Assembly: GCF_002741015.1 (NCBI RefSeq)
Contig: NZ_CP016616.1
Location: 2,265,501-2,329,500, forward strand
Source of the DNA: Microvirga ossetica
Lineage (GTDB): Bacteria > Pseudomonadota > Alphaproteobacteria > Rhizobiales > Beijerinckiaceae
DNA length: 64,000 bases
Direction: 5' to 3'
Part shown: one piece after another, positions 7,896 through 42,180 of the stretch
Layout: each line of letters begins with the position of its first letter
How positions within the stretch are numbered: the stretch's first letter is position 1
Position numbers and translations under genes: made by a program
The notes under the pieces: generated by a model
What the model was told of the DNA's origin: nothing
What the model saw: only the letters and a program-made list of their open reading frames with translations
The model's database searches: none

Positions 7896-9974
7896 ATGAC
7901 GGCTTCAGACGCGGCTCTCGCAGGCAATCCTCTTCTCACATCGTGGACGACGCCCTTCGGTCTTCCACCCTTCGAAAGCATCGCGCCGGAGCATTATAAG
8001 CCCGCCTTCGACACGGCGCTCGCCGAGCAGCAGGCCGAGATCGCCGCCATCGCGGACAATGCGGAGGCGCCCACCTTCGCCAACACGATCGAGTCGTTGG
8101 AGACGAGCGGCCGGACGCTGAAGAAGGTCAGCGGCGTGTTCTTCAATCTCGCGGGCTCGCACACCAACGATGCGATCCAGGCGGTCGAGCGCGAGATGGC
8201 GCCGCTCCTCGCTAAGCACCGCAACAGCATCTTCATGAACGAGGCGCTCTACAAGCGCGTGGCGGCGCTCTACGACAAGCGCGACAGCCTCGGTCTTACC
8301 CCCGAGCAATCCCGCGTCCTCGACCGCTACCACACCATTTTCGTGCGCGCCGGCGCGAAGCTCGGGCCGGAGGAGAAGAAGCGTCTCGCCGCGATCACGG
8401 AGCGGCTGGCAAGCCTCGGCACGCAATTCTCGCAGAATGTTCTGGCCGACGAGAAATCCTATCAGCTCGTTCTCGACGGCGAGGCGGATCTCGAAGGCCT
8501 GCCGTCCTTCCTGCGCGAGGCCGCGGCCCAGGCGGCGGAGGAGCGCGGCCTAAAGGGCAAGCATGTCATCACGCTCTCCCGCTCGAGCATCGAGCCGTTC
8601 CTGCAATTCTCCAAGCGGCGCGACCTGCGCGAACAGGCCTTCAAGGCCTGGGCAGCGCGCGGTGATAACGGCAATGCCACCGACAACAAGGCGATCATCG
8701 CCGAGACGGCGGCCCTGCGTTCGGAGCGGGCAAAGCTTCTCGGCTACGAGACCTTCGCCGATTTCAAGCTCGCCGACACGATGGCGAAGACGCCCGGCAA
8801 TGTGCAGAAGCTCTTGGATGATGTCTGGGCGCCGGCGATTGCCCGCGCCGAGGGCGAGCGCGACGACCTGCAGGCCCAGGCGCAATCGGTCGGCGACAAC
8901 ATCGCCATCGAGCCGTGGGACTGGCGCTATTATGCCGATCAGGTGCGCATGGCGCGCCACAATCTCGACGAGGCGACGATCAAGCCGTACTTCCAGCTCG
9001 ACCGCATCATCGAGGCTTCGTTCGAAACGGCGCAAAGACTCTTCGGGCTGAGCTTCGAGGAGCTGAAGGATTTCCCGCGCTATCATCCCGATATCCGCGC
9101 CTGGCAGGTCAAGGATGCGCAAGGCACCCCTGTCGGCACCTTCATCGGCGATTATTTCGCACGCCCATCCAAACGCAGCGGCGCCTGGATGAGCGCCTTC
9201 CGCTCGCAGGAAAAGCTCGGCGGCGACATTCGCCCGATCATCGTCAACGTGATGAACTTCTCGAAGGGCGCGGCGGGCGAGCCGTCACTCCTGAGCTTCG
9301 ACGATGCGCGCACGCTGTTCCACGAATTCGGCCATGGCCTCCACGGCCTGCTTTCGAACGTGACCTATCCGCTTTTGGCCGGCACAGCCGTGTCGACGGA
9401 TTTCGTCGAGCTGCCATCGCAGCTCTACGAGCACTGGCTCTCGCAGCCGGATATCCTGCGCCGCTACGCGACCCATTACCGGACCGGCGAGCCGATTCCC
9501 GAGGCACTGCTCGAACGGCTCATGGCCGCGCGCAACTTCAACCAGGGCTTCGCCACGGTCGAATATCTCGCCTCCGCCTTCGTCGATCTCGCGCTTCATC
9601 GCCGCAAGGATCTTAGTGACCTCGACGTGTCTGCTTTTGAGAAGGAAACGCTGCAGACGATCGGCATGCCGCGCGAGATCATCATGCGCCACCGCACGCC
9701 GCATTTCACGCATGTGTTCTCGGGCGACGGCTATTCGTCAGGCTATTACAGCTATCTCTGGTCGGAGGTGCTCGACGCGGATGCCTTCACCGCCTTCGAA
9801 GAAACGGGCAACGCCTTCGACAAGGGCATGGCGGACAAGCTGAAAGCCTTCATCTACTCCGCCGGCAACCTGCGCGACCCAGCCGAAGCCTATACGGCGT
9901 TCCGCGGACGGCTGCCCACGGCAGACGCGCTTCTTGCCAAGCGCGGATTGGTGGCGGTGGTGGAAGACGCTTGA
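7896..9974 (+). CDS. M3 family metallopeptidase (oligopeptidase A / dipeptidyl carboxypeptidase type)
   Basis: 692 aa, a zinc oligopeptidase acting on short peptides in the cytoplasm; no signal peptide is visible. The zinc-binding HEFGH motif is at 476-480, with the following downstream Glu region expected of M3 enzymes. The N-terminal sequence NPLLTSWTTPFGLPPFE is typical of the Dcp/OpdA group, and the length matches (about 680 aa). Start ATG 7896 has a good CAGGAG ribosome site 5 nt upstream; the longer open frame overlaps the previous gene. It could complete breakdown of peptides imported by the ABC system at the window start, though it is not in that operon. OpdA versus Dcp cannot be decided by eye. 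Confidence 0.93.
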   Translation: MTASDAALAGNPLLTSWTTPFGLPPFESIAPEHYKPAFDTALAEQQAEIAAIADNAEAPTFANTIESLETSGRTLKKVSGVFFNLAGSHTNDAIQAVEREMAPLLAKHRNSIFMNEALYKRVAALYDKRDSLGLTPEQSRVLDRYHTIFVRAGAKLGPEEKKRLAAITERLASLGTQFSQNVLADEKSYQLVLDGEADLEGLPSFLREAAAQAAEERGLKGKHVITLSRSSIEPFLQFSKRRDLREQAFKAWAARGDNGNATDNKAIIAETAALRSERAKLLGYETFADFKLADTMAKTPGNVQKLLDDVWAPAIARAEGERDDLQAQAQSVGDNIAIEPWDWRYYADQVRMARHNLDEATIKPYFQLDRIIEASFETAQRLFGLSFEELKDFPRYHPDIRAWQVKDAQGTPVGTFIGDYFARPSKRSGAWMSAFRSQEKLGGDIRPIIVNVMNFSKGAAGEPSLLSFDDARTLFHEFGHGLHGLLSNVTYPLLAGTAVSTDFVELPSQLYEHWLSQPDILRRYATHYRTGEPIPEALLERLMAARNFNQGFATVEYLASAFVDLALHRRKDLSDLDVSAFEKETLQTIGMPREIIMRHRTPHFTHVFSGDGYSSGYYSYLWSEVLDADAFTAFEETGNAFDKGMADKLKAFIYSAGNLRDPAEAYTAFRGRLPTADALLAKRGLVAVVEDA

Positions 9975-13583: not shown

Positions 13584-13690
13584 CAGGCGGGGGCAAGGCA
13601 GGATTTGGGGAAGCTCGACAGTTTCCGGCTTTCTTCTCGGCGCGATTGGCCCTAAATCCACGCAGGTTCTCGTTTGCTAAGGAACGCGCA

Positions 13691-14896
13691 ATGGCGACAA
13701 CATCGACGATCCGCTGGCTGGCCCTTGGAGTGGCGCTCGCCCTCGGATCTCCCGCCGTGCAGGCCCAGCCCGCTCCGATCAAGATCGGGGAGCTGAATTC
13801 CTATGCCCGACAGGCAGCCTTCACCGTGCCTTATCGGGACGGGTGGCAGCTCGCGCTCGACGAGATCAACGCCAAGGGCGGGGTTCTCGGCCGCAAGCTC
13901 GAGATCGTCTCCCGCGAGGATGGCGCGACCACGGGCGATGCCACCCGCGTGGCCGACGAGCTCGTGAGCCGCGAGGGCGTCTCGCTGCTCTTCGGCTCGT
14001 TCCTGTCGAATGTCGGCGTCGCCATGGCGGATTTCGCCAACCAGAAGAAGATCGTCTACATCGCCGCCGAGCCTCTGACCGATGCCATCACCATGGCTCA
14101 GGGCAACCGCTACACCTTCCGCATCCGGCCCAACAACACCATGCAGGTCGGCATGCTGGTGGATCAGGCCAAGGCTTCCGGAGCGAAGCGCTGGGCCATC
14201 GTCGCGCCGAACTACGAATACGGCCAGTCGGCGGCGGCCGCCTTCAAGCGACTGATCCAGGAGCGCGTGCCCGGCGCCCAGATCGTTGCCGAGCAATATC
14301 CGGCCCTCGGCAAGATCGAGGCGGGCCCCACGGTCTCGGCGCTCGAGCAGGCGAAGCCCGACGGCGTCTTCAACGTGCTCTTCGGCCCCGACCTCACCCA
14401 GTTCGTCCGCGAGGGCAATACCCGCGGCCTCTTCGAGGGCAAGACCGTTCTTTCGCTTCTCACCGGCGAGCCCGAATGGCTCCTGCCCCTGAAGGACGAG
14501 GTGCCCGCGGGCTGGACGGTGACGGGCTATCCCTGGGACCAGATCACCGAGCCGAAGCACAAGGCATTCGTTGACGCCTACCGTGCCAAGTACAACGACA
14601 CGCCGCGTCTCGGCTCGCTCCTCGGTTACATGGTCGTCTATATGATCCGCGACACCATCGAGCGCGCCGGCTCCACCGAGACCGAGGCCATCATCAAGGC
14701 ACTCGAGGATGCGAAGTTCGACACCGTCGTCGGCCCCATCACCATGCGCGGCATCGACAACCAATCCTCCATGGGAGCCTGGGTCGGCAAGCTCGTGCTC
14801 AAAGGCGCCGCCGGTGGCATGACCGACTGGGCTTACAAGGACGGCACCTCGTTCATGCCGACCGAGGGCGAGGTGAAGGCGGTGCGGAAGGATTGA
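13691..14896 (+). CDS. Branched-chain amino acid-type ABC transporter substrate-binding protein
   Basis: 401 aa periplasmic binding protein of the Leu/Ile/Val (Peripla_BP_6) type. A signal peptide covers about residues 1-26 with cleavage after AVQA. The mature start IKIGELNSYARQAAF and the later GDATRVADELVSREGV are typical of the family. Start ATG 13691 has an AAGGAA ribosome site. Followed by a DUF559 gene and then fused permease and two ATPases, so it supplies ligand to that importer. Family members bind amino acids but also amides, urea and aromatic compounds; the ligand is open. Confidence 0.9.
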   Translation: MATTSTIRWLALGVALALGSPAVQAQPAPIKIGELNSYARQAAFTVPYRDGWQLALDEINAKGGVLGRKLEIVSREDGATTGDATRVADELVSREGVSLLFGSFLSNVGVAMADFANQKKIVYIAAEPLTDAITMAQGNRYTFRIRPNNTMQVGMLVDQAKASGAKRWAIVAPNYEYGQSAAAAFKRLIQERVPGAQIVAEQYPALGKIEAGPTVSALEQAKPDGVFNVLFGPDLTQFVREGNTRGLFEGKTVLSLLTGEPEWLLPLKDEVPAGWTVTGYPWDQITEPKHKAFVDAYRAKYNDTPRLGSLLGYMVVYMIRDTIERAGSTETEAIIKALEDAKFDTVVGPITMRGIDNQSSMGAWVGKLVLKGAAGGMTDWAYKDGTSFMPTEGEVKAVRKD

Positions 14897-14905
14897 CGCG
14901 CTTTC

Positions 14906-14955
14906 ACCCTCCCCTTGAGGGGGAGGGTCGGCGCTTCAGCGCCGGGGTGGGGTGG
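14906..14955. repeat. Left inverted repeat flanking the DUF559 gene
   Basis: A 50-nt segment containing two short hairpins (ACCCTCCCC/GGGGAGGGT and a CGGCGC/GCGCCG stem) followed by GGGGTGGGGTGG. The reverse complement of 15355-15402 matches it almost exactly; only the apex of the second hairpin differs. It begins 10 nt after the binding-protein stop codon and could also act as a weak terminator or mRNA stabiliser for that gene. Confidence 0.9.
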
Positions 14956-14975
14956 CACCGCAACAGAAACCGATC

Positions 14976-15404
14976 ATGTCCGATATCAGCCGCTTCAGAC
15001 GCGAAAGAGCAAAACAACTTCGCTCAAGCACTACCGTGCCGGAGCGGGCCCTCTGGCGCGCCCTGAAGCGCATTCCCGTCTACGGTAGCCATTTCCGCCG
15101 CCAAGTCCCCATCGGCCCCTATGTCGCCGATTTCGCCTGCCTGAAGGCTCGCCTTCTCATCGAACTCGACGGCGGTCACCATTCGCAGGACGATGTTGCC
15201 AGCAAGGATGAAGCCCGGACCCGCTGGCTCGAAAAAGAAGGCTATCGCGTCGTCCGGTTCTGGAATGCCGAGCTGATCAAGAACATGAACGGCGTTCTCG
15301 ACACCATTTACGCGGCCTTATATGGCTCGCCGCAATCGGAAGCGCTGGTGCTTCCCACCCCACCCCGGCCTGACGGCCGACCCTCCCCCTCAAGGGGAGG
15401 GTAA
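14976..15404 (+). CDS. DUF559 domain-containing protein (predicted endonuclease-like)
   Basis: 142 aa. The family has a restriction-endonuclease-like fold related to very-short-patch repair nucleases. The core is seen here: VPERALWRALKRIP, then FRRQVPIGPYVADFAC, IELDGGHH and GYRVVRFWNAEL, with Asp and Glu/Asp positions fitting a PD-(D/E)XK-type site. The last about 20 residues (LPTPPRPDGRPSPSRGG) are read from the right inverted repeat. ATG 14976 is preferred; a GTG at 14952 lies inside the left repeat. It interrupts the order binding protein - permease - ATPases, so insertion is likely. Family function is unproven; a role in repair, restriction or element mobility is inference. Confidence 0.85.
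   Translation: MSDISRFRRERAKQLRSSTTVPERALWRALKRIPVYGSHFRRQVPIGPYVADFACLKARLLIELDGGHHSQDDVASKDEARTRWLEKEGYRVVRFWNAELIKNMNGVLDTIYAALYGSPQSEALVLPTPPRPDGRPSPSRGG
15355..15402. repeat. Right inverted repeat flanking the DUF559 gene; supplies the ribosome site of the next gene
   Basis: 48 nt, reverse-complementary to 14906-14955 except at one hairpin apex. It encodes the C-terminus of the DUF559 protein up to its stop. Its terminal AGGGGAGGGT is placed 8-16 nt before the ATG of the permease at 15410, so it appears to serve as that gene's Shine-Dalgarno sequence. Confidence 0.9.
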
Positions 15405-15409
15405 CCGCG

Positions 15410-17257
15410 ATGGATCCCTCCTTCCTCGCCGTTCAGGCGCTGAGCGGCCTCTCCAGCGCTTCATCGCTTTTCATCGCTGCCTGCGGCCTGACGATCGTTT
15501 TCGGCGTCACGCGGATCGTGAACTTCGCGCACGGTTCGCTCTACATGATCGGCGCCTACACGGCCGCGACCCTGGTGCCGCGGCTGCTCGAACTCTCCTT
15601 CGGACCCGTCACCTTCTGGGTCGGCATCCTGCTCTCGGCGCTCATCGTCGGCATCATCGGAGTCATCATCGAAGTTCTGCTCCTGCGGCGCATCTACGGC
15701 GCGCCGGAGCTTTTTCAGCTGCTCGCCACCTTCGGCGTGGTGCTGGTTGTGCAGGATCTCGTGATCCAGGTCTTCGGTCCGGAGGATATTCTCGGACCCC
15801 GCGCTCCCGGCCTGCGCGCGCCGGTGGAAATCCTCGGACGGCGCTTTCCTTCTTATGAGCTCGTGCTGATCGCCGCCGGCCCCGTCGTGCTGGGGCTCGT
15901 CTGGCTTCTCCTGCGCCGGACCCGTTTCGGCGTTTTGGTGCGGGCGGCGACGCAGGATCGCGACATGGTGGCCTCGCTCGGCGTCAACCAGGCGATGCTG
16001 TTCACCGGCACGCTGTTTCTCGGCGCCTTTCTCGCCGGCCTCGGCGGCGCGCTCCAGATCCCGCGCGTCTCGGCCCATGCGGGCATGGACCTGTCGATCA
16101 TCGCCGAGGCCTTCGTCGTCACCGTGGTCGGCGGCATGGGCAGCGTGCCGGGAGCCTTTCTCGCGGCGCTCATCATCGGGCAGCTTCAGGCCTTCGGCAT
16201 CCTGATCTTCCCGAAGAGCACCCTCGTCGTGGTGTTCCTGCTCATGGCCGTGGTGCTGGCGATCCGGCCCTACGGCTTCTTCGGGCGCGCCGAAACCGTT
16301 GGCGGCACCCACGCGATCGGCATCGCCAGCCACAAGCCCCTGCCCGGCCGGACCTATATCCTGCTCGTCGTCATTGCGGCTCTCGCCGCCTTCCCGCTGG
16401 TGGCGGATGCCTATCTCCTGAAGGTCGCGACCGAGATCCTGATCTTCGCGCTCTTCGCCTTCAGCCTGCAGCTTCTCATCGGCGTCGGCGGGCTCGTGAG
16501 CTTCGGCCATGCGGCCTTCTTCGGCCTCGGCGCCTATGGCGCGGCACTTGCCGTGAAATGGTACGGCGCCTCGATGGAGGCAGCGCTGCCCCTCGGACTC
16601 GCATTGGCGGCCTTGGGCGCGATGCTGATCGGCGCCTTCGTGGTGCGTCTCTCCGGCATCTATCTCGCCATGATGACCCTCGCCGCCGCGCAGATCCTCT
16701 ACGCGGTCGCCTTCCAATGGGTCGACGTGACCGGCGGCGACAACGGCATCGTCGGGGTATGGCCGTCGGGCTGGGCGAGCGGACCTGTCCCGTATTACGC
16801 CCTGACTGCGGCGCTGACGCTCGTGACGGTGCTGCTTCTGAAGCGCGTCATCGACGCGCCCTTCGGCTACGCCCTGCGTGCCGCCCGCGACTCGGAGGCC
16901 CGTGCGGAAGCGATCGGATTGAGCGTCCGCCGGCAGCGCTGGCTCGCCTTCATGATCGCGGGCGCTGCCGCCGGGCTCGCGGGCGGCCTCTATGCCTTCT
17001 CCCGCGGCTCGGTGGACCCGAGCCTTCTCGGCATCTCGACCTCGGTGGATGCCCTGACCATGCTGCTGCTGGGCGGCATCCAGACCGTAACCGGCCCGCT
17101 CGTCGGCGCCGGTGTCCTGCATTTCCTGCGCGACCAGATCATGCCGCTGACGCCGCTCTGGCGCCTGATGCTGGGCCTGAGCATCATCGCCATGGTGCTG
17201 CTCTTCCCCCGCGGACTCGTGGGCACGCTCCGGCACTGGCAGGAGCAGCGGGCATGA
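15410..17257 (+). CDS. Fused branched-chain amino acid-type ABC permease (LivH-LivM)
   Basis: 615 aa with two permease halves in one chain. Residues 1 to about 285 correspond to LivH (VNFAHGSLYMIGAY near the N-terminus, then GGMGSVPGAFLAALIIGQ). Residues about 300-610 correspond to LivM (VSFGHAAFFGLGAYGAA, then AARDSEARAEAIG and a final GGIQTVTGPLVGAG). Most importers of this class have two separate genes, so this is a natural fusion seen in some alphaproteobacteria. About 16-18 hydrophobic segments are visible. Starts 5 nt after the DUF559 stop. Ends in an ATGA overlap with the first ATPase. Confidence 0.92.
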   Translation: MDPSFLAVQALSGLSSASSLFIAACGLTIVFGVTRIVNFAHGSLYMIGAYTAATLVPRLLELSFGPVTFWVGILLSALIVGIIGVIIEVLLLRRIYGAPELFQLLATFGVVLVVQDLVIQVFGPEDILGPRAPGLRAPVEILGRRFPSYELVLIAAGPVVLGLVWLLLRRTRFGVLVRAATQDRDMVASLGVNQAMLFTGTLFLGAFLAGLGGALQIPRVSAHAGMDLSIIAEAFVVTVVGGMGSVPGAFLAALIIGQLQAFGILIFPKSTLVVVFLLMAVVLAIRPYGFFGRAETVGGTHAIGIASHKPLPGRTYILLVVIAALAAFPLVADAYLLKVATEILIFALFAFSLQLLIGVGGLVSFGHAAFFGLGAYGAALAVKWYGASMEAALPLGLALAALGAMLIGAFVVRLSGIYLAMMTLAAAQILYAVAFQWVDVTGGDNGIVGVWPSGWASGPVPYYALTAALTLVTVLLLKRVIDAPFGYALRAARDSEARAEAIGLSVRRQRWLAFMIAGAAAGLAGGLYAFSRGSVDPSLLGISTSVDALTMLLLGGIQTVTGPLVGAGVLHFLRDQIMPLTPLWRLMLGLSIIAMVLLFPRGLVGTLRHWQEQRA

Positions 17258-18030: not shown

Positions 18031-18743
18031 AACGCGATGTGCTTCTCGACGTCAGGAACCTCAACGCCTTCTACGGCCGGGCGCAGGTGCTGTTCGACCT
18101 ATCGATCCATCTCTATCCCGGCGAGGTCGTGGCGCTTCTCGGCCGCAACGGGGCCGGCAAGACCACGACGCTGAAGGCGATCATGGGCCTGATCTCGGCC
18201 ACCGCCACCCATGCCACCTTCAAGGGGCACACCCTCGGCAAGCTCCCGACTTACAAAATCGCCCGGCTCGGGCTCGGCTACGTGCCCGAGGACCGGCGCA
18301 TCTTCACCGACCTCACCGTCGACGAGAACCTGGAGACCGGGCGCCGAGAGGCGGTGGCCGGCCGTGCCCCCTGGACGCCGGAGCGGCTCTTCCGGCTCTT
18401 TCCCAACCTTGCCGAGATGCGCGGGCGGCGCGGCAACCAGATGTCCGGCGGCGAGCAGCAGATGCTGACGATCGCGCGCACCCTCATGGGCAACCCGGAT
18501 GCGATCCTGCTCGATGAGCCCTCCGAGGGCATCGCCCCGGTCATCGTCCAGATGATGGCCGATGCGATCCGGGCCATGAAGGCGGAGGGGGTAGCCGTGC
18601 TTCTCTCCGAGCAGAACTGGGCCTTCGCCGCCGGGATCGGCGACCGGGCCTGCGTCATCGAGCGCGGGGAGATCCGGTTCCAGGGCTCCATGGCCGAGCT
18701 TGTCGCCGACGAGGCGCTGCGGGCGGAAACCCTCGGGGTTTGA
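18027..18743 (+). CDS. livF: Branched-chain amino acid-type ABC transporter ATP-binding protein LivF
   Basis: 238 aa ATPase, the second of the pair. Walker A GRNGAGKTT at 39-47, signature MSGGEQQML, Walker B AILLDEPSEG and the LivF-typical GYVPEDRRIFTDLTV segment. Translationally coupled to livG by ATGA. It is the last gene of the importer operon; a ferredoxin gene follows 104 nt downstream in the same direction and no clear intrinsic terminator lies between. Confidence 0.92.
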   Translation: MKRDVLLDVRNLNAFYGRAQVLFDLSIHLYPGEVVALLGRNGAGKTTTLKAIMGLISATATHATFKGHTLGKLPTYKIARLGLGYVPEDRRIFTDLTVDENLETGRREAVAGRAPWTPERLFRLFPNLAEMRGRRGNQMSGGEQQMLTIARTLMGNPDAILLDEPSEGIAPVIVQMMADAIRAMKAEGVAVLLSEQNWAFAAGIGDRACVIERGEIRFQGSMAELVADEALRAETLGV

Positions 18744-20304: not shown

Positions 20305-23300
20305 TCAGAGCAGGATGTTGTTGTTCGTGCCCCAGATGATGCCGAGCCCAACCGTAATCGCGAAATTGGGAGCTGCGCTGGTGCCGGCATCTCCGACGAA
20401 GCCGTAAAGGATTCCGTTGCTGAAATCGTAGCACAGACTCCCGGCAGCAAGTATGGCGGGGGCACCCAAACTGATCGTGATGGTCGACGAGAAGGCATCG
20501 TCTGCGCCGCCGTTGATCGCGTCGATTTTGGAGAGGTCGAGCACATCCTGGCTGCCGTTGAAATCGGCGATGACATCGCCCGCCACCTCCTGGGTCGTGG
20601 CGAAGACGAAGGTGTCGTGGTCCTCGCCCCCGATGAGCCTGTCCGCACCGGTGCCGCCCTCGAGCGTATCGTTGTCGTCGCCTCCGTCCAGGGTATCGGC
20701 TCCGTCGAGGCCATGGAGCTTGTCGGCACCGATCAGGCCGATGAGGGTGTTGCCGGCATCGTTGCCCCAGATGGAGTCCGCCCGGATGGTGCCCCGAACG
20801 CCCTCGATCGAAGTGAACTCATCCGTGCCGAATCCACCCGTTCCGGTCTGCACCTTGTTTCGAAGGTCGATCGAGATCGCTGAGGTGGCCAGAAGGTAGT
20901 CGACGATATCGTGTCCGGGGCGACCATTGAGAATGTCGTCGCCTTGTCCGCCATCTAGGTAGTCGTTCCCGGTACTGCCGTTCAGCGTATCGTCGAACGC
21001 GCTTCCGGTAAGGCCCTCGATGCTCTCGAAGACGTCGCGGGTCGACGACTCGACGCCGTCACCGAGAACCACATTGACGCCGGCCCCGGCACGACGGTAA
21101 TCGACGATGTCCATGCCGGCGCCGCCTTTGAAGGTGTTGCCGACAATCCGATCCACGCCGGTGAATCCACTGACGAAGCGGTCGTCGAAGGCCGTTCCGA
21201 TGACGCCCTCGATGCTGATCAGCTGATCGGAGAGGCCTCCGAGCGCAACGCCGGTATTGATCGCATATTGCTTGCCTTCGGCGAGATCGACGAAGACGCC
21301 TCCGCCGAACACTCCCGATGAGGGATGCTTGGAGTAATCCGCGTAGTCGTACCCGCCCCCTCCATTGATGACGTCCACAATGCTGCCCAGGCCATTCACG
21401 TCGTATCCGCCGTCGAGCGTGTCGTCTCCCTCGAGACCCTCAAGCCTGTTCTCGGTGTTGGTGGCCGTGACCGCGATGTAGTTGTTCAGGCTATTTCCGT
21501 TCAAGATCATGAAAAGATCGCGTCTGACGATCAGGTTCTCGACATGGTCGGCGAGGAGGTACTCGCGCAGCGCGAAACTTCGGGCGATCTCGATGGTGTC
21601 GATTCCCTCACCCGCCTGCTCGATCGCCACATCCATTTCGTTGTTGGAGGTATAGGCGTCGAAGATATAGGTGTCGTCGCCGGCGCCGCCGATCAGTGTA
21701 TCCGCGCCCTTGCCGCCATCGAGCGTGTTGGCGAGAGCGTTGCCCGTCCCCCGCGTCGCGGCGCCGGTCAGCGTCAGGTTCTCGAGGTTGTCGCCCAGCG
21801 TGTAATCGACGGCGCTCACGACGGTATCGGTGAAGCCGTCGCCGGTGCCCACCGCCTCGCCAATGATCGTGTCGCCGGTCTCGTCTACGATATAGGTGTC
21901 GTTGCCGGCGCCGCCGATCAGCGTGTCCACGCCGGCACCGCCGTCGAGCGTATTGGCGAGGCCGTTGCCCGCGATCCGGTTCGCGAGAGCGTTGCCCGTC
22001 CCCCGCATCGCGGCGCCGGTCAGCGACAGGTATTCGAGATTGGCTGCCAGCGTATAGTCCACGGATGCCCACACCAGGTCGAGGGCGTCTCCGCCGGTCC
22101 CCTCCGCCTCCCCCTCGATGACGTCCCCGACATCGTCCACCACATAAGCGTCACTTCCCGCACCCCCGATGAGGCGATCGGCGCCCATCCCGCCATCGAG
22201 ACTGTCGGTACCCGCGCCGCCGACGATGACGTCGCTGCCGCCTCCGCCGAGGAGGGTGTCCGCTCCCTCGCCGCCATCCAGGTTGTCATCACCTTCACCG
22301 CCCGCGATGTTGTCGGCCCCGAGCCCTCCGATCAGCGTATCGTTGCCGGCTCCGCCGTCGAGAGCGTCGGCTCCCTCGCCGCCATCGAGCATGTCCGAGC
22401 CCGTCCCACCCTCGACCCAGTCGTTGCCGTCCTCACCGAAAAGCCGGTCGGCTCCACCGCCGGCGCGGATCGTGTCGAAGCCGGCGCCGCCCCGGACGAT
22501 ATTGGCAAAATCGTCCGCGTCCGTACCGATCTCGATGAGATCGCCGAAACCGCCGGCCTCGACGATCTCGAAGCCGCTCAAGGTGTCGTTGCCCTGGCCG
22601 GTCGCCGTTCCGCTGCCGGTGGAATCGAGGCGGATGACGAGTGCCGATCCGGCGAAGGAAAAGATCGCCCTGTCCGCGCTGCCGAGACCGCCTGCGAGCC
22701 TATCGTCGCCTGCATCGCCATGCACCGCGTCATCGCCCGCACCGCCGTCGAGCGAGTCGTTGCCCGCACCGCCGAAAAGCGTGTCCCCGCCGTCGGCGCC
22801 GAGGAGCGTATCGTTGCCGTCGAGGCCATGAAGGGTGCTGTGCTGCGCGCTGCTCGCCGTGATGACGTTTGCAAGCTCGTTGCCGGTGCCGATCGCGGCT
22901 GCACCGGCAAGCCTGAGATTCTCGACGTTCGCACCGAGGGTATAATCGATGCTCGATTCGACCGTGTCGATTCCTGCGCCCGGGGCCTCCACGACGACAT
23001 CGTTCTGATTATCGACGGAATAGAGATCGTTGCCCGCGCCGCCGTCGAGCTTGTCACTGCCGCTTCCCCCGATCAGCGTATCGTCGCCGCCGCCGCCGAA
23101 AAGCACGTCATTGCCGCCGCTTCCGTCGAGCCGGTTGGCGGTGAGGATGCTATCGGCGCCGCCCGTAAGCGTGTCGCCGAACGACGAACCGATCGCATTC
23201 TCGATGCCTGAGAGCCGATCGGTTCCCGCGCCCATCGTGTTCTGCGCCGTCGTCCTGGACAGATCGACCGACACTCCCTTGGCAGCGCTCGCATAGCTCG

Positions 23301-24024
23301 CCGTGTCGCTGCCCGTGCCGCCGATCAGCCTGTCGCTGCCGGCGCCGCCGTTGAGCGTGTCGTCGCCGGCAGCACCGTCGAGCGTGTTGGCGGCGCTGTT
23401 GCCGGTGATCACGTTGGCGAGCGCGTTGCCTTTTCCCTTGGCGATCCGCCCGCCGAGGATGAGATTCTCGATTCCCGATGCAAGCGTGTATCTGCTTACT
23501 CGCGCCTCGACCGTGTCAAGGCCGCCATTCGTCGTCTCCCGGACTCGGTCGCGCAGGGAATCCACCATATAGCGATCGTCGCCCGAACCGCCCACGAGCG
23601 AGTCGTTGCCGCTGCCGCCGATCAGCGTGTCGCTCCCCGCGCCGCCCAGCAATGTGTCGTTGCCGCCGCCGCCATTCAGCCTGTCGCTGCCTGCGCCGCC
23701 GGAGAGCCTGTTGGCGGCATCGTCGCCCGTCACCGTCTTCGCAGACGGCTTGCTCATCCCTCCGGCGATCGCCGCGTCTTTCGGAAGCGTCGGGCTCTCC
23801 ACTTTGAATGGCCGGGAAGGGCCGGGAAGCGGAAAGGAGAACGACGCCGACATCGCAGCCGGGCCGGACACGGGGGGAAGGGCGTCGGTATAGGCCTGAT
23901 CGGCCGGCGCGCTGAAGAGCACGTCGAGGCCGGGCCAGATGATCGGGCGAATGGGGGTGCTCCAGCGGTCCGAGCCCGGCTCGCCCGGGTCGGTCCGAAC
24001 CGGCAACCTGATGGAATCGGGCAT
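20305..24024 (-). CDS. Large RTX (hemolysin-type calcium-binding repeat) secreted protein
   Basis: 1239 aa. Residues 1-100 are a non-repetitive Pro-rich N-terminus without a signal peptide. Residues about 100-1145 hold many GGxGxDxLx nonapeptides that bind calcium in a beta roll. They are interleaved with spacer modules containing YTLxxNxENLxLxG (about 179, 361, 657 and 741). The last 90 residues, beginning DVIADFNGSQDVLDLSKIDA, resemble the C-terminal uncleaved secretion region of serralysin/NodO-type proteins. No catalytic motif is seen. Expected to leave the cell through a type I exporter, none of which is encoded here. ATG 24024 has CAGGAGAG upstream. Function could be adhesion, surface layer or matrix; unknown. 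Confidence 0.92.
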   Translation of the reverse strand: MPDSIRLPVRTDPGEPGSDRWSTPIRPIIWPGLDVLFSAPADQAYTDALPPVSGPAAMSASFSFPLPGPSRPFKVESPTLPKDAAIAGGMSKPSAKTVTGDDAANRLSGGAGSDRLNGGGGNDTLLGGAGSDTLIGGSGNDSLVGGSGDDRYMVDSLRDRVRETTNGGLDTVEARVSRYTLASGIENLILGGRIAKGKGNALANVITGNSAANTLDGAAGDDTLNGGAGSDRLIGGTGSDTASYASAAKGVSVDLSRTTAQNTMGAGTDRLSGIENAIGSSFGDTLTGGADSILTANRLDGSGGNDVLFGGGGDDTLIGGSGSDKLDGGAGNDLYSVDNQNDVVVEAPGAGIDTVESSIDYTLGANVENLRLAGAAAIGTGNELANVITASSAQHSTLHGLDGNDTLLGADGGDTLFGGAGNDSLDGGAGDDAVHGDAGDDRLAGGLGSADRAIFSFAGSALVIRLDSTGSGTATGQGNDTLSGFEIVEAGGFGDLIEIGTDADDFANIVRGGAGFDTIRAGGGADRLFGEDGNDWVEGGTGSDMLDGGEGADALDGGAGNDTLIGGLGADNIAGGEGDDNLDGGEGADTLLGGGGSDVIVGGAGTDSLDGGMGADRLIGGAGSDAYVVDDVGDVIEGEAEGTGGDALDLVWASVDYTLAANLEYLSLTGAAMRGTGNALANRIAGNGLANTLDGGAGVDTLIGGAGNDTYIVDETGDTIIGEAVGTGDGFTDTVVSAVDYTLGDNLENLTLTGAATRGTGNALANTLDGGKGADTLIGGAGDDTYIFDAYTSNNEMDVAIEQAGEGIDTIEIARSFALREYLLADHVENLIVRRDLFMILNGNSLNNYIAVTATNTENRLEGLEGDDTLDGGYDVNGLGSIVDVINGGGGYDYADYSKHPSSGVFGGGVFVDLAEGKQYAINTGVALGGLSDQLISIEGVIGTAFDDRFVSGFTGVDRIVGNTFKGGAGMDIVDYRRAGAGVNVVLGDGVESSTRDVFESIEGLTGSAFDDTLNGSTGNDYLDGGQGDDILNGRPGHDIVDYLLATSAISIDLRNKVQTGTGGFGTDEFTSIEGVRGTIRADSIWGNDAGNTLIGLIGADKLHGLDGADTLDGGDDNDTLEGGTGADRLIGGEDHDTFVFATTQEVAGDVIADFNGSQDVLDLSKIDAINGGADDAFSSTITISLGAPAILAAGSLCYDFSNGILYGFVGDAGTSAAPNFAITVGLGIIWGTNNNILL
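21731..22025. repeat. Near-identical direct repeats inside the RTX gene
   Basis: A 43-nt stretch at 21731-21773 recurs at 21983-22025 with a single base difference. Flanking sequence is also similar at the protein level (the YTLxxNLExLxLTGAA...GTGNALAN module). This indicates a recent duplication or gene conversion of one RTX spacer module. Confidence 0.85.
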
Positions 24025-29261: not shown

Positions 29262-29432
29262 CGCGGATCTCCCCTCTCCCGTGCGGGCGTAAGGGCGGGG
29301 CTTTCCATCGGCAAAGCGCCCGTCCACCTTCTCCTGCAGCGCGTCCCGCTCAGTGCCTCATCCGGCACCGGCCTTCCCTCACCCCGACCCTCTCCCAAAC
29401 AGGAGAGGGAGACGGACAGGGTCATCTCAACG

Positions 29433-37047: not shown

Positions 37048-37150
37048 CCCTCCCCCTTGTGGGGAGGGCCCAGGGTGGGGGTGCCGGCGCCAGACCTTCA
37101 TAGGCTATCGCTCACACCCCCACCTCCAACTCCTCCCCACAAGGGGGAGG
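37048..37150. repeat. Palindromic element without a gene inside
   Basis: Left arm 37048-37084 has a CCTCCCCCTTGTGGGGAGG hairpin followed by a GGGTGGGGGTG tract; right arm 37113-37150 is its imperfect reverse complement. The spacer is about 28 nt. The architecture (C/G hairpin plus G-rich tract, in inverted pairs) is the same as the repeats flanking the DUF559 gene. The 324-nt gap 37012-37335 holds nothing else recognisable. Confidence 0.75.
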
Positions 37151-37335
37151 AGGGCCGGTCGAGCCAAGCTTTTGGGTTCTTTACAAAATGGCATGACCCT
37201 ATTCGGGAAAAGCAGTTCCCAGGCTTCCCGGTCATGCATTAAGACGGTGGCATGAAAGCCGCCGTCGTTTCGTTCCAAGGACAAGCGAGGGTGGCAGGCT
37301 CCATGAGCCTCACGCCCGCATTCAGGGAGACCAAC

Positions 37336-41863: not shown

Positions 41864-42180
41864 GAGGATCTCCGTGGGTTTTCTTGACGCCTGACTTAGT
41901 CCCATAAGGCGGCCGCGTGAAGGGCAAAGCGACGAATGCGGCTTTGTTGTCATTCCTGGCGATCGGGTGCACGCTTCCCATCACACTCGCCACGTCATGG
42001 CCGGGCTCGTCCCGGCCATCCCGATCGGAAGAACGTTGCGCCTTTCGCATCGGGATCACCGGCACGAGGCCGGTGATGACGTGGTAGGGACAGCGGCGCC
42101 CGAATTCATCGAGTGTAGCGCTCTGACGTTTCGACCCCCACCCTCGGCCCCTCCCCGCAAGGGGGAGGGAAGAGGCGCCT
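41864..42180. other. 317-nt gap with palindromic repeats
   Basis: Divergence is absent here: both flanking genes are on the minus strand, so the promoter of the transaldolase gene should lie in 41864-41990. The rest is repeats: a family 3 palindrome at 41993-42083 and a single C/G-rich arm at about 42132-42172 (ACCCCCACCCTCGG, then CTCCCCGCAAGGGGGAG). No small gene is apparent. Confidence 0.7.
41993..42083. repeat. Palindromic repeat family 3, complete copy
   Basis: Left arm CGTCATGGCCGGGCTCGTCC... (41993-42025) pairs imperfectly with the right arm 42049-42083; each arm also contains a small hairpin. The right arm is identical over 35 bp with 29100-29134. Confidence 0.85.

Follow-up and report, generated by a model that had tools for sequence, protein, structure and literature searches.

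A DUF559 nuclease gene that interrupts an importer operon in the window, the 64,000-nt stretch of DNA analysed here, is framed by two inverted copies of a repeat whose layout is, judged from its base pattern, that of the published intrastrand-triplex motif of the purine type (class II, Y-loop-R-loop-R'). Comparison of gene flanks shows that inverted pairs of such repeats frame DUF559 genes much more often than they frame other genes, and we consider it probable, from the sequence patterns described below, that the window unit belongs to a widespread partnership between DUF559 nucleases and hairpin-plus-third-strand repeats, with the nuclease driving the spread of the repeats. The best reading is that of a second repeat-associated nuclease system unrelated to RAYTs, in which cutting and mobilisation would be the inferred activities of the protein.

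At the window locus, the left neighbour is the substrate-binding protein gene of a branched-chain amino-acid-type ABC importer (ORF 13646–14896, + strand; PF13458, E = 6e-67) and the right neighbour its permease gene (ORF 15410–17257, + strand; PF02653, BPD_transp_2 in two stretches, E = 4e-72), bearing out the original prediction that a single gene splits the operon between the two. This gene (14976–15404, + strand), recognised from its ORF and its match to the DUF559 profile PF04480, encodes a Vsr-like nuclease. It likely starts at ATG 14976 rather than at GTG 14952, the start given in the ORF list, since several orthologues at the same site conserve the sequence from there. The left arm (14904–14955, + strand), an intrastrand-triplex-type motif, reads TCACCCTCCCCTTGAGGGGGAGGGT-CGGCGCTTCAGCGCC-GGGGTGGGGTGG and comprises hairpin 1 (ACCCTCCCC/GGGGAGGGT), hairpin 2 (CGGCGC/GCGCCG) and the G-rich tail GGGGTGGGGTGG, which points inward to the gene; the right arm (15355–15404, − strand), found by motif scan and folding, is its inverted counterpart, TTACCCTCCCCTTGAGGGGGAGGGT-CGGCCGTCAGGCC-GGGGTGGGGTGG, likewise with the tail toward the gene. 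The two had been described as near-perfect inverted repeats that differ at one hairpin apex only. The first half of this description holds; the second does not, as the arms differ in the inner part of hairpin 2 (a 6-bp versus a 5-bp stem) and in one outer base. Despite these differences, hairpin 2 pairs in both arms, and each arm folds as anticipated into a double hairpin, with the G-rich tract as a free 3' tail (left, −18.6 kcal/mol, z = −4.35; right, −17.3 kcal/mol, z = −4.27; none of 200 shuffles as stable in either case). Also as read originally, the right arm supplies the C-terminal codons and the stop (TAA, 15402–15404) of the nuclease gene and carries a GGAGGG (15396–15401) 8 nt ahead of the permease ATG at 15410, a putative Shine-Dalgarno-like element for the permease gene, so that the operon can apparently remain readable. 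The inverted flank match at this locus scored 36.5, compared to a maximum of 17.5 at 264 pseudo-gene control positions, and is beyond chance. The strict arm pattern occurs five times in the 9.63-Mb genome, three of these copies flanking DUF559 genes, while the reversed-pattern control yielded none.

The window protein matched only two domain profiles, PF04480 (E = 4e-36; 123.5 bits, with a curated cut-off of 20.6) and PF18741 (REase_MTES_1575). Its candidate catalytic residues E15, D44, E55, D57, H61 and D70 are invariant among 11 representatives and invariant or at least 90% conserved in 40 proteins; it appears to share family and candidate residues with Vsr, the YcjD/DUF559 nucleases and VsrA. 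While Vsr acts in mismatch repair, the window gene is linked to repeats, and no cytosine methyltransferase is among its immediate neighbours, which are liv-type genes. Against structures, the protein gave a weak profile match to Vsr (1cw0, E = 0.54) and a better one to the mobile-intron protein PDB 3r3p (E = 7e-5); other PDB matches with E above 0.5 were disregarded as being at chance level. We take 3r3p to be an intron homing endonuclease of the EDxHD type, thus likewise a small nuclease tied to mobility, but the window gene has no intron and its repeats are not a homing site. An earlier study linked the YcjD and Vsr profiles at 1e-5 and, in 2005, already handled YcjD as a PD-(D/E)XK protein (PMC1189080). 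The AlphaFold2 model of the window protein has a mean pLDDT of 77.6; a solved structure exists for a relative, 3hrl. None of the anti-phage defence families in PADLOC-DB matched it, and an identity as a defence gene was dropped for this reason.

The original prediction had missed that each arm consists of a hairpin and a G-rich tail that mirrors the purine strand of this hairpin, and it is this feature that identifies the arms as repeats of the published intrastrand-triplex kind. Antiparallel triplexes of the purine motif are built from G*G.C, T*A.T and A*A.T triads. The flanks of DUF559 genes provided 293 distinct purine-pyrimidine hairpins in which the mirror rule, scored accordingly with G opposite G and T or A opposite A, was compared with a direct repeat. 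Among the 220 with an asymmetric purine strand, the mirror fitted better in 128, worse in 18 and equally well in 74, and perfect tail fits numbered 143 for the mirror versus 36 for the direct repeat. Counted by protein cluster, the mirror was better in 21, worse in one and tied in 6 (p = 1.1e-5); for the most telling cores, those asymmetric in A, it prevailed in 7 clusters versus none, with 3 ties. With only G positions used to place the tails, A was faced by A in 228 cases, by T in 159, by C in 10 and by G in 6. The window arms follow the rule at eight of nine positions. An alternative pairing, of the C-half with the tail at the cost of one T.T mismatch, was given up for the mirror reading because asymmetric arms mostly fit the mirror only. 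In arms of the window type (type A, see below), hairpin 2 has a stem of at least 5 bp in 36 of 62 distinct interiors versus 7.6% of shuffles, indicating that its pairing is kept through sequence change.

According to Holder et al. (2015; PMC4666352), intrastrand-triplex motifs of this class are found in over 260 genomes. The TM and TM-ECO motifs described there, and the earlier PIT elements of Hoyne and Maher cited therein, share with our arms the pyrimidine-loop-purine-loop-purine layout, the occurrence in inverted pairs, the intergenic location and the high copy number; inverted motif pairs are reported for E. coli K-12, and no mobility gene is reported there as associated with the E. coli motif. 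In many of our arms the second loop contains a hairpin, unlike in the E. coli TM motif.

To quantify the association, the 300 nt upstream of a gene were compared in inverted orientation with the 300 nt downstream, a score of at least 20 being counted as a pass. A profile search found PF04480 in 43 of the 48 Microvirga genomes, and 46 of 70 DUF559 loci of this genus passed, compared to none of 264 pseudo-gene positions taken from these loci; with the flanks compared in direct orientation, 3 of the 70 reached a score of 20. In a database-wide scan, 80 loci were retained from a larger number of matches and, leaving out four with an N run or a short flank (L225, L235, L256, L258), 51 of the 76 usable loci among these matches kept passed, compared to 5 of 782 other ORFs in the same loci. 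A phylum-wide sample contained the family in 112 of 299 genomes, with 41 of 70 fetched loci passing versus 2 of 280 controls; among the best hits taken one per genome, 12 of 30 loci passed, the 40 extra loci coming from multi-copy genomes that were picked by copy number, independently of arms. At least three loci are duplicates (L179 = L080, L198 = L104, L223 = L063), such that pooled totals overcount slightly. A plasmid collection held 45 records matching DUF559; two of 11 fetched loci passed, from Sphingomonas and from the cyanobacterium Pseudanabaena. Clustering of the proteins at 60% identity gave 41 clusters, of which 30 had at least one armed member and 24 an armed majority. The armed state is common but not universal: 24 of the 70 genus loci failed, including an armless clade of seven genes and most of a second clade, E. 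The two arms of a gene, moreover, belong together. In the 20 genomes from which at least three loci were fetched, the best downstream match to an upstream arm was the gene's own in 55 of 76 cases, where 20 were expected and none of 20,000 permutations reached 55, indicating that, where a genome has several copies, the two arms of one gene usually match more closely than they do the arms of its paralogues. The placement of arms is thus non-random relative to DUF559 genes, as the original prediction supposed.

Arm typing along a tree of 70 genus proteins yielded five arm types that mostly track clades A to E, suggesting that arm type largely follows protein clade; with these further types, the notion that the strict type A motif was the whole story was abandoned. 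The window genome has six matches to PF04480; of the four strong ones, two have type A arms, on both sides at the window locus and downstream only at another (L002). A further gene (L004) is framed by an inverted pair of another type, and yet another (L001) has a further arm type on one side, facing the other way. With the exception of five motifs of type E and two of type C, all lying downstream of genes, tails point inward. In clade E, most genes have one motif or none, and five have a downstream motif facing the other way; type E arms also occur on a gene outside this clade (L064). Of the clade A genes, five at a second site lack a type A pair; a type C motif lies upstream of four of them, and in four of the five typing found a type A arm, on the downstream side only. 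The arm tests applied found no arms in the clade of seven genes at one conserved site (L060, L061, L063, L065, L068, L074, L106), which is perhaps a domesticated branch or one of different function.

The few sites shared within each clade (two for A, two for B, four for C, one for D and three for E) suggest that DUF559 genes mostly stay put. One site holds a clade A gene in eight genomes (L002, L059, L076, L105, L111, L113, L120, L127) and a clade C gene in five (L070, L081, L085, L109, L116), as would result from type replacement or neighbouring insertion; it presumably adjoins glycyl-tRNA synthetase genes. At the liv site, the permease is present in all 48 genus genomes, and the gene with its arms in 13, whereas 35 lack the gene, so that orthologous operons without it exist, as anticipated. 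Five of the gene-less gaps bear a motif and thirty have, by the label used, neither gene nor motif, although one of the latter (L051) still contains a short hairpin of the same kind; nine of the 35 measure 16 nt. On a tree of the binding protein, which leaves out G007 owing to a contig break, accounting for this pattern takes six or more changes on branches with good support, and the site has thus apparently changed state repeatedly. Neither a target-site duplication nor a clean boundary could be defined at the liv sites, where filled and empty flanks have diverged, and no clean insertion boundary was found in a 190-kb comparison of two congeners of about 90% identity, over which several motif-bearing stretches differ.

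Types A, B, C and D all occur dispersed in the genus, with no reversed-pattern matches, and motif scans show that gene-less copies and doublets of the same types differ between related genomes. Six inward doublets of type A were read, with spacings of 70–71 nt in five and 37 nt in one, and three of type B, with 23 or 52–53 nt; in cross-type doublets, D and E motifs lie 24 nt apart (L168, 923–1027; L177, 2281–2389). Motif scanning of the window itself located a gene-less, REPIN-like inward doublet at 37048–37152 (37048–37080 on the + and 37118–37152 on the − strand), composed of type C and its CTCCTCCCC variant, as well as two single motifs on the − strand, one type C-like (42136–42169) and one of the GGGAGAGGG/GGGTGAGGG form (29376–29409). 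The minimal mobile element originally proposed is thus borne out in part: gene-less copies are scattered and differ between genomes, while the gene itself would seldom move, given the one to four shared sites per armed clade within the genus.

Dispersed type A copies occur in 14 of 18 genomes with a cognate gene versus 8 of 30 without; the corresponding figures are 7 of 8 versus 15 of 40 for type B, 6 of 7 versus 10 of 41 for type D and, with gene-flanking arms still counted, 16 of 16 versus 21 of 32 for type C. The lowest uncorrected p in each row belongs to the cognate type, and several non-cognate pairs also fall below 0.05. When corrected on the tree (47 genomes), the values for the same way and the other way were 1.8/1.5 for A, 1.4/0.1 for B, 4.9/0.3 for C and 2.4/0.0 for D, with no median p reaching 0.05 and no trend for type A. 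Independent pairs are too few, and phylogeny-corrected co-occurrence of gene and motif is weak and would lend support rather than proof; simple co-occurrence, significant before correction, was discarded as proof. The window genome is the sharpest exception, having 83 type C motifs, yet no clade C gene among its PF04480 matches. It also has type D motifs without a gene, which a decayed type D DUF559 gene in this genome would explain (L167, 1694–1994; G000:C1:4103000-4107000): what is left of it are its two arms and 15 initial codons (87% identical), and between the arms lies a type C motif together with an inverted partner that was read by eye.

In E. coli, the annotated DUF559 gene is ycjD; a 940-nt stretch including it is covered to at least 80% in 3361 of 5426 genomes. 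K-12 has a motif of the TM form 167 nt downstream of ycjD; its mirror tail is complete and its stem contains one mismatch. Two further strains (L357, L365) have a second, inverted motif that overlaps the 3' end of the gene. This second motif was not recognised in K-12 when the sapF-ycjD-fabI loci (L360, L357, L365) were scanned, and no motif was seen upstream of ycjD in the E. coli loci scanned. Where efflux genes take the place of ycjD (L361, L363), the 6.2 kb scanned contained no motif of the kind found at its 3' end. Genomes with any copy of the E. coli motif (5369 of 5426) carry 1 to 27. We rejected ycjD as a clean insertion, since the four ycjD-less strains fetched have efflux genes there, described as the eef operon (PMC12817139). 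The main text of Holder et al. (PMC4666352) does not mention ycjD, and we found no report in the open-licence PMC literature that joins the DUF559 family to these repeats; a prior report elsewhere is possible.

The original prediction had compared the unit with REP/RAYT pairs, and the parallel is well supported by association, the family having its own palindromes and dispersed gene-less copies. In REP/REPIN systems with their RAYT (TnpA-REP), the gene is likewise framed by its own inverted palindromes, inward doublets without a gene are dispersed, the gene is mostly immobile and repeat type is linked to protein clade (compare PMC8266576). The DUF559/repeat unit would work like RAYT/REPIN, yet is not a member: RAYTs have a HuH Y1 transposase domain, for which profile search gave no match in the window protein, a PD-(D/E)XK Vsr-like nuclease, and their repeats have a GTAG box, which on inspection is absent from both window arms, whereas the repeats here have a mirror third strand. 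The CGTC REPs of alphaproteobacteria, reported to be unassociated with transposase genes (PMC3733652), differ from the window arms in stem sequence and tail, and this identity was rejected.

We infer that the nuclease recognises, cuts and spreads its repeats. Recognition could take place once a cognate repeat has one of its strands exposed and folded, as might happen on the lagging-strand template; the enzyme would then nick the DNA in or next to the hairpin, after which doublets might be copied or excised in trans through repair or strand transfer. The gene would be a mostly resident driver and the doublets the travelling part, as for RAYTs and REPINs. It is conceivable, however, that the nuclease processes the repeats instead of spreading them, as a repair or fork-clearing cutter of triplex or hairpin obstacles that is retained close to the sites it acts on, with the arms having an autoregulatory role. 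Such a role would suit a Vsr-like family found mostly at shared sites, given that in Caulobacter the DUF559 protein VsrA is the driver of a DNA damage response when cells lack a methyltransferase (PMC12907096) and that the E. coli motifs have been tied to local instability (PMC4666352), but processing alone explains neither the many motif types per genome that match individual genes nor the dispersed gene-less doublets of the same architecture, and we regard it as unlikely, though by no means negligible. That a host enzyme or unrelated transposase spreads the repeats, with DUF559 genes as passengers caught between copies in composite units, we consider improbable: copies and doublets without a gene and abundant orphan motifs are what one would expect, but so are many framed gene families, where the ORF-matched controls gave only 5 in 782, and specificity is called for both by the way arm type matches clade and by the own-pair result.

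Two further explanations concern the arms themselves. As strong hairpins, they might be mere transcription terminators or mRNA-stability elements around a small gene; yet mirror tails, an inward orientation at either end, types linked to clades and dispersal are not what marks a terminator, Rfam families gave no match in window positions 14500–15800, and Holder et al., citing earlier work, state that PIT/TM motifs have neither promoter nor terminator activity (PMC4666352), leaving this very improbable. The G-rich half could alternatively form a G-quadruplex that, in place of the triplex, is the target of the protein. Most arms have four G-tracts, and possible competition from a quadruplex is noted by Holder et al. 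However, mirrored A positions, as in the A-rich stem AAAGAGGGG with its tail GGGGAGATT (L287), fit the triads and are unneeded for a quadruplex, and imino NMR supports the E. coli triplex in vitro, although DMS footprinting in vivo did not (PMC4666352), so that we see little likelihood in a quadruplex target.

For the favoured reading, a nuclease that spreads its own repeats, the implications reach beyond the window. We see evenly balanced prospects for the broader view that DUF559 proteins are the missing mobilisers of intrastrand-triplex repeats from Alphaproteobacteria to Cyanobacteria, similar to RAYT/REPIN but unrelated, with YcjD of E. coli K-12 as their representative in the laboratory. 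The origin of these repeats was previously unexplained, and the DUF559 family provides a candidate spreader that is also present in E. coli K-12, while the clade-linked association suggests what a large domain of unknown function may do. If true, the partnership of repeat and nuclease would have arisen a second time independently, with another enzyme fold and another shape of target DNA, and a nuclease of the mismatch-repair type would be reading a folded triplex.

Two observations stand apart from this argument. In one genome, palindromic elements lie inside type C-like palindromes at two places (L260, about 18300–18740, and L261, about 8950–9190; G047:C224 near 38.3–38.7 kb and 49.0–49.2 kb), where other short palindromic elements appear inserted at the palindrome loop, separating the stem halves; at the L261 place, the other genome compared has an unsplit motif. 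Hairpin tips may thus be insertion targets. In the window, an ORF of 1239 residues (20305–24024, − strand) contains glycine/aspartate-rich repeats that look, by eye, like those of calcium-binding RTX proteins.
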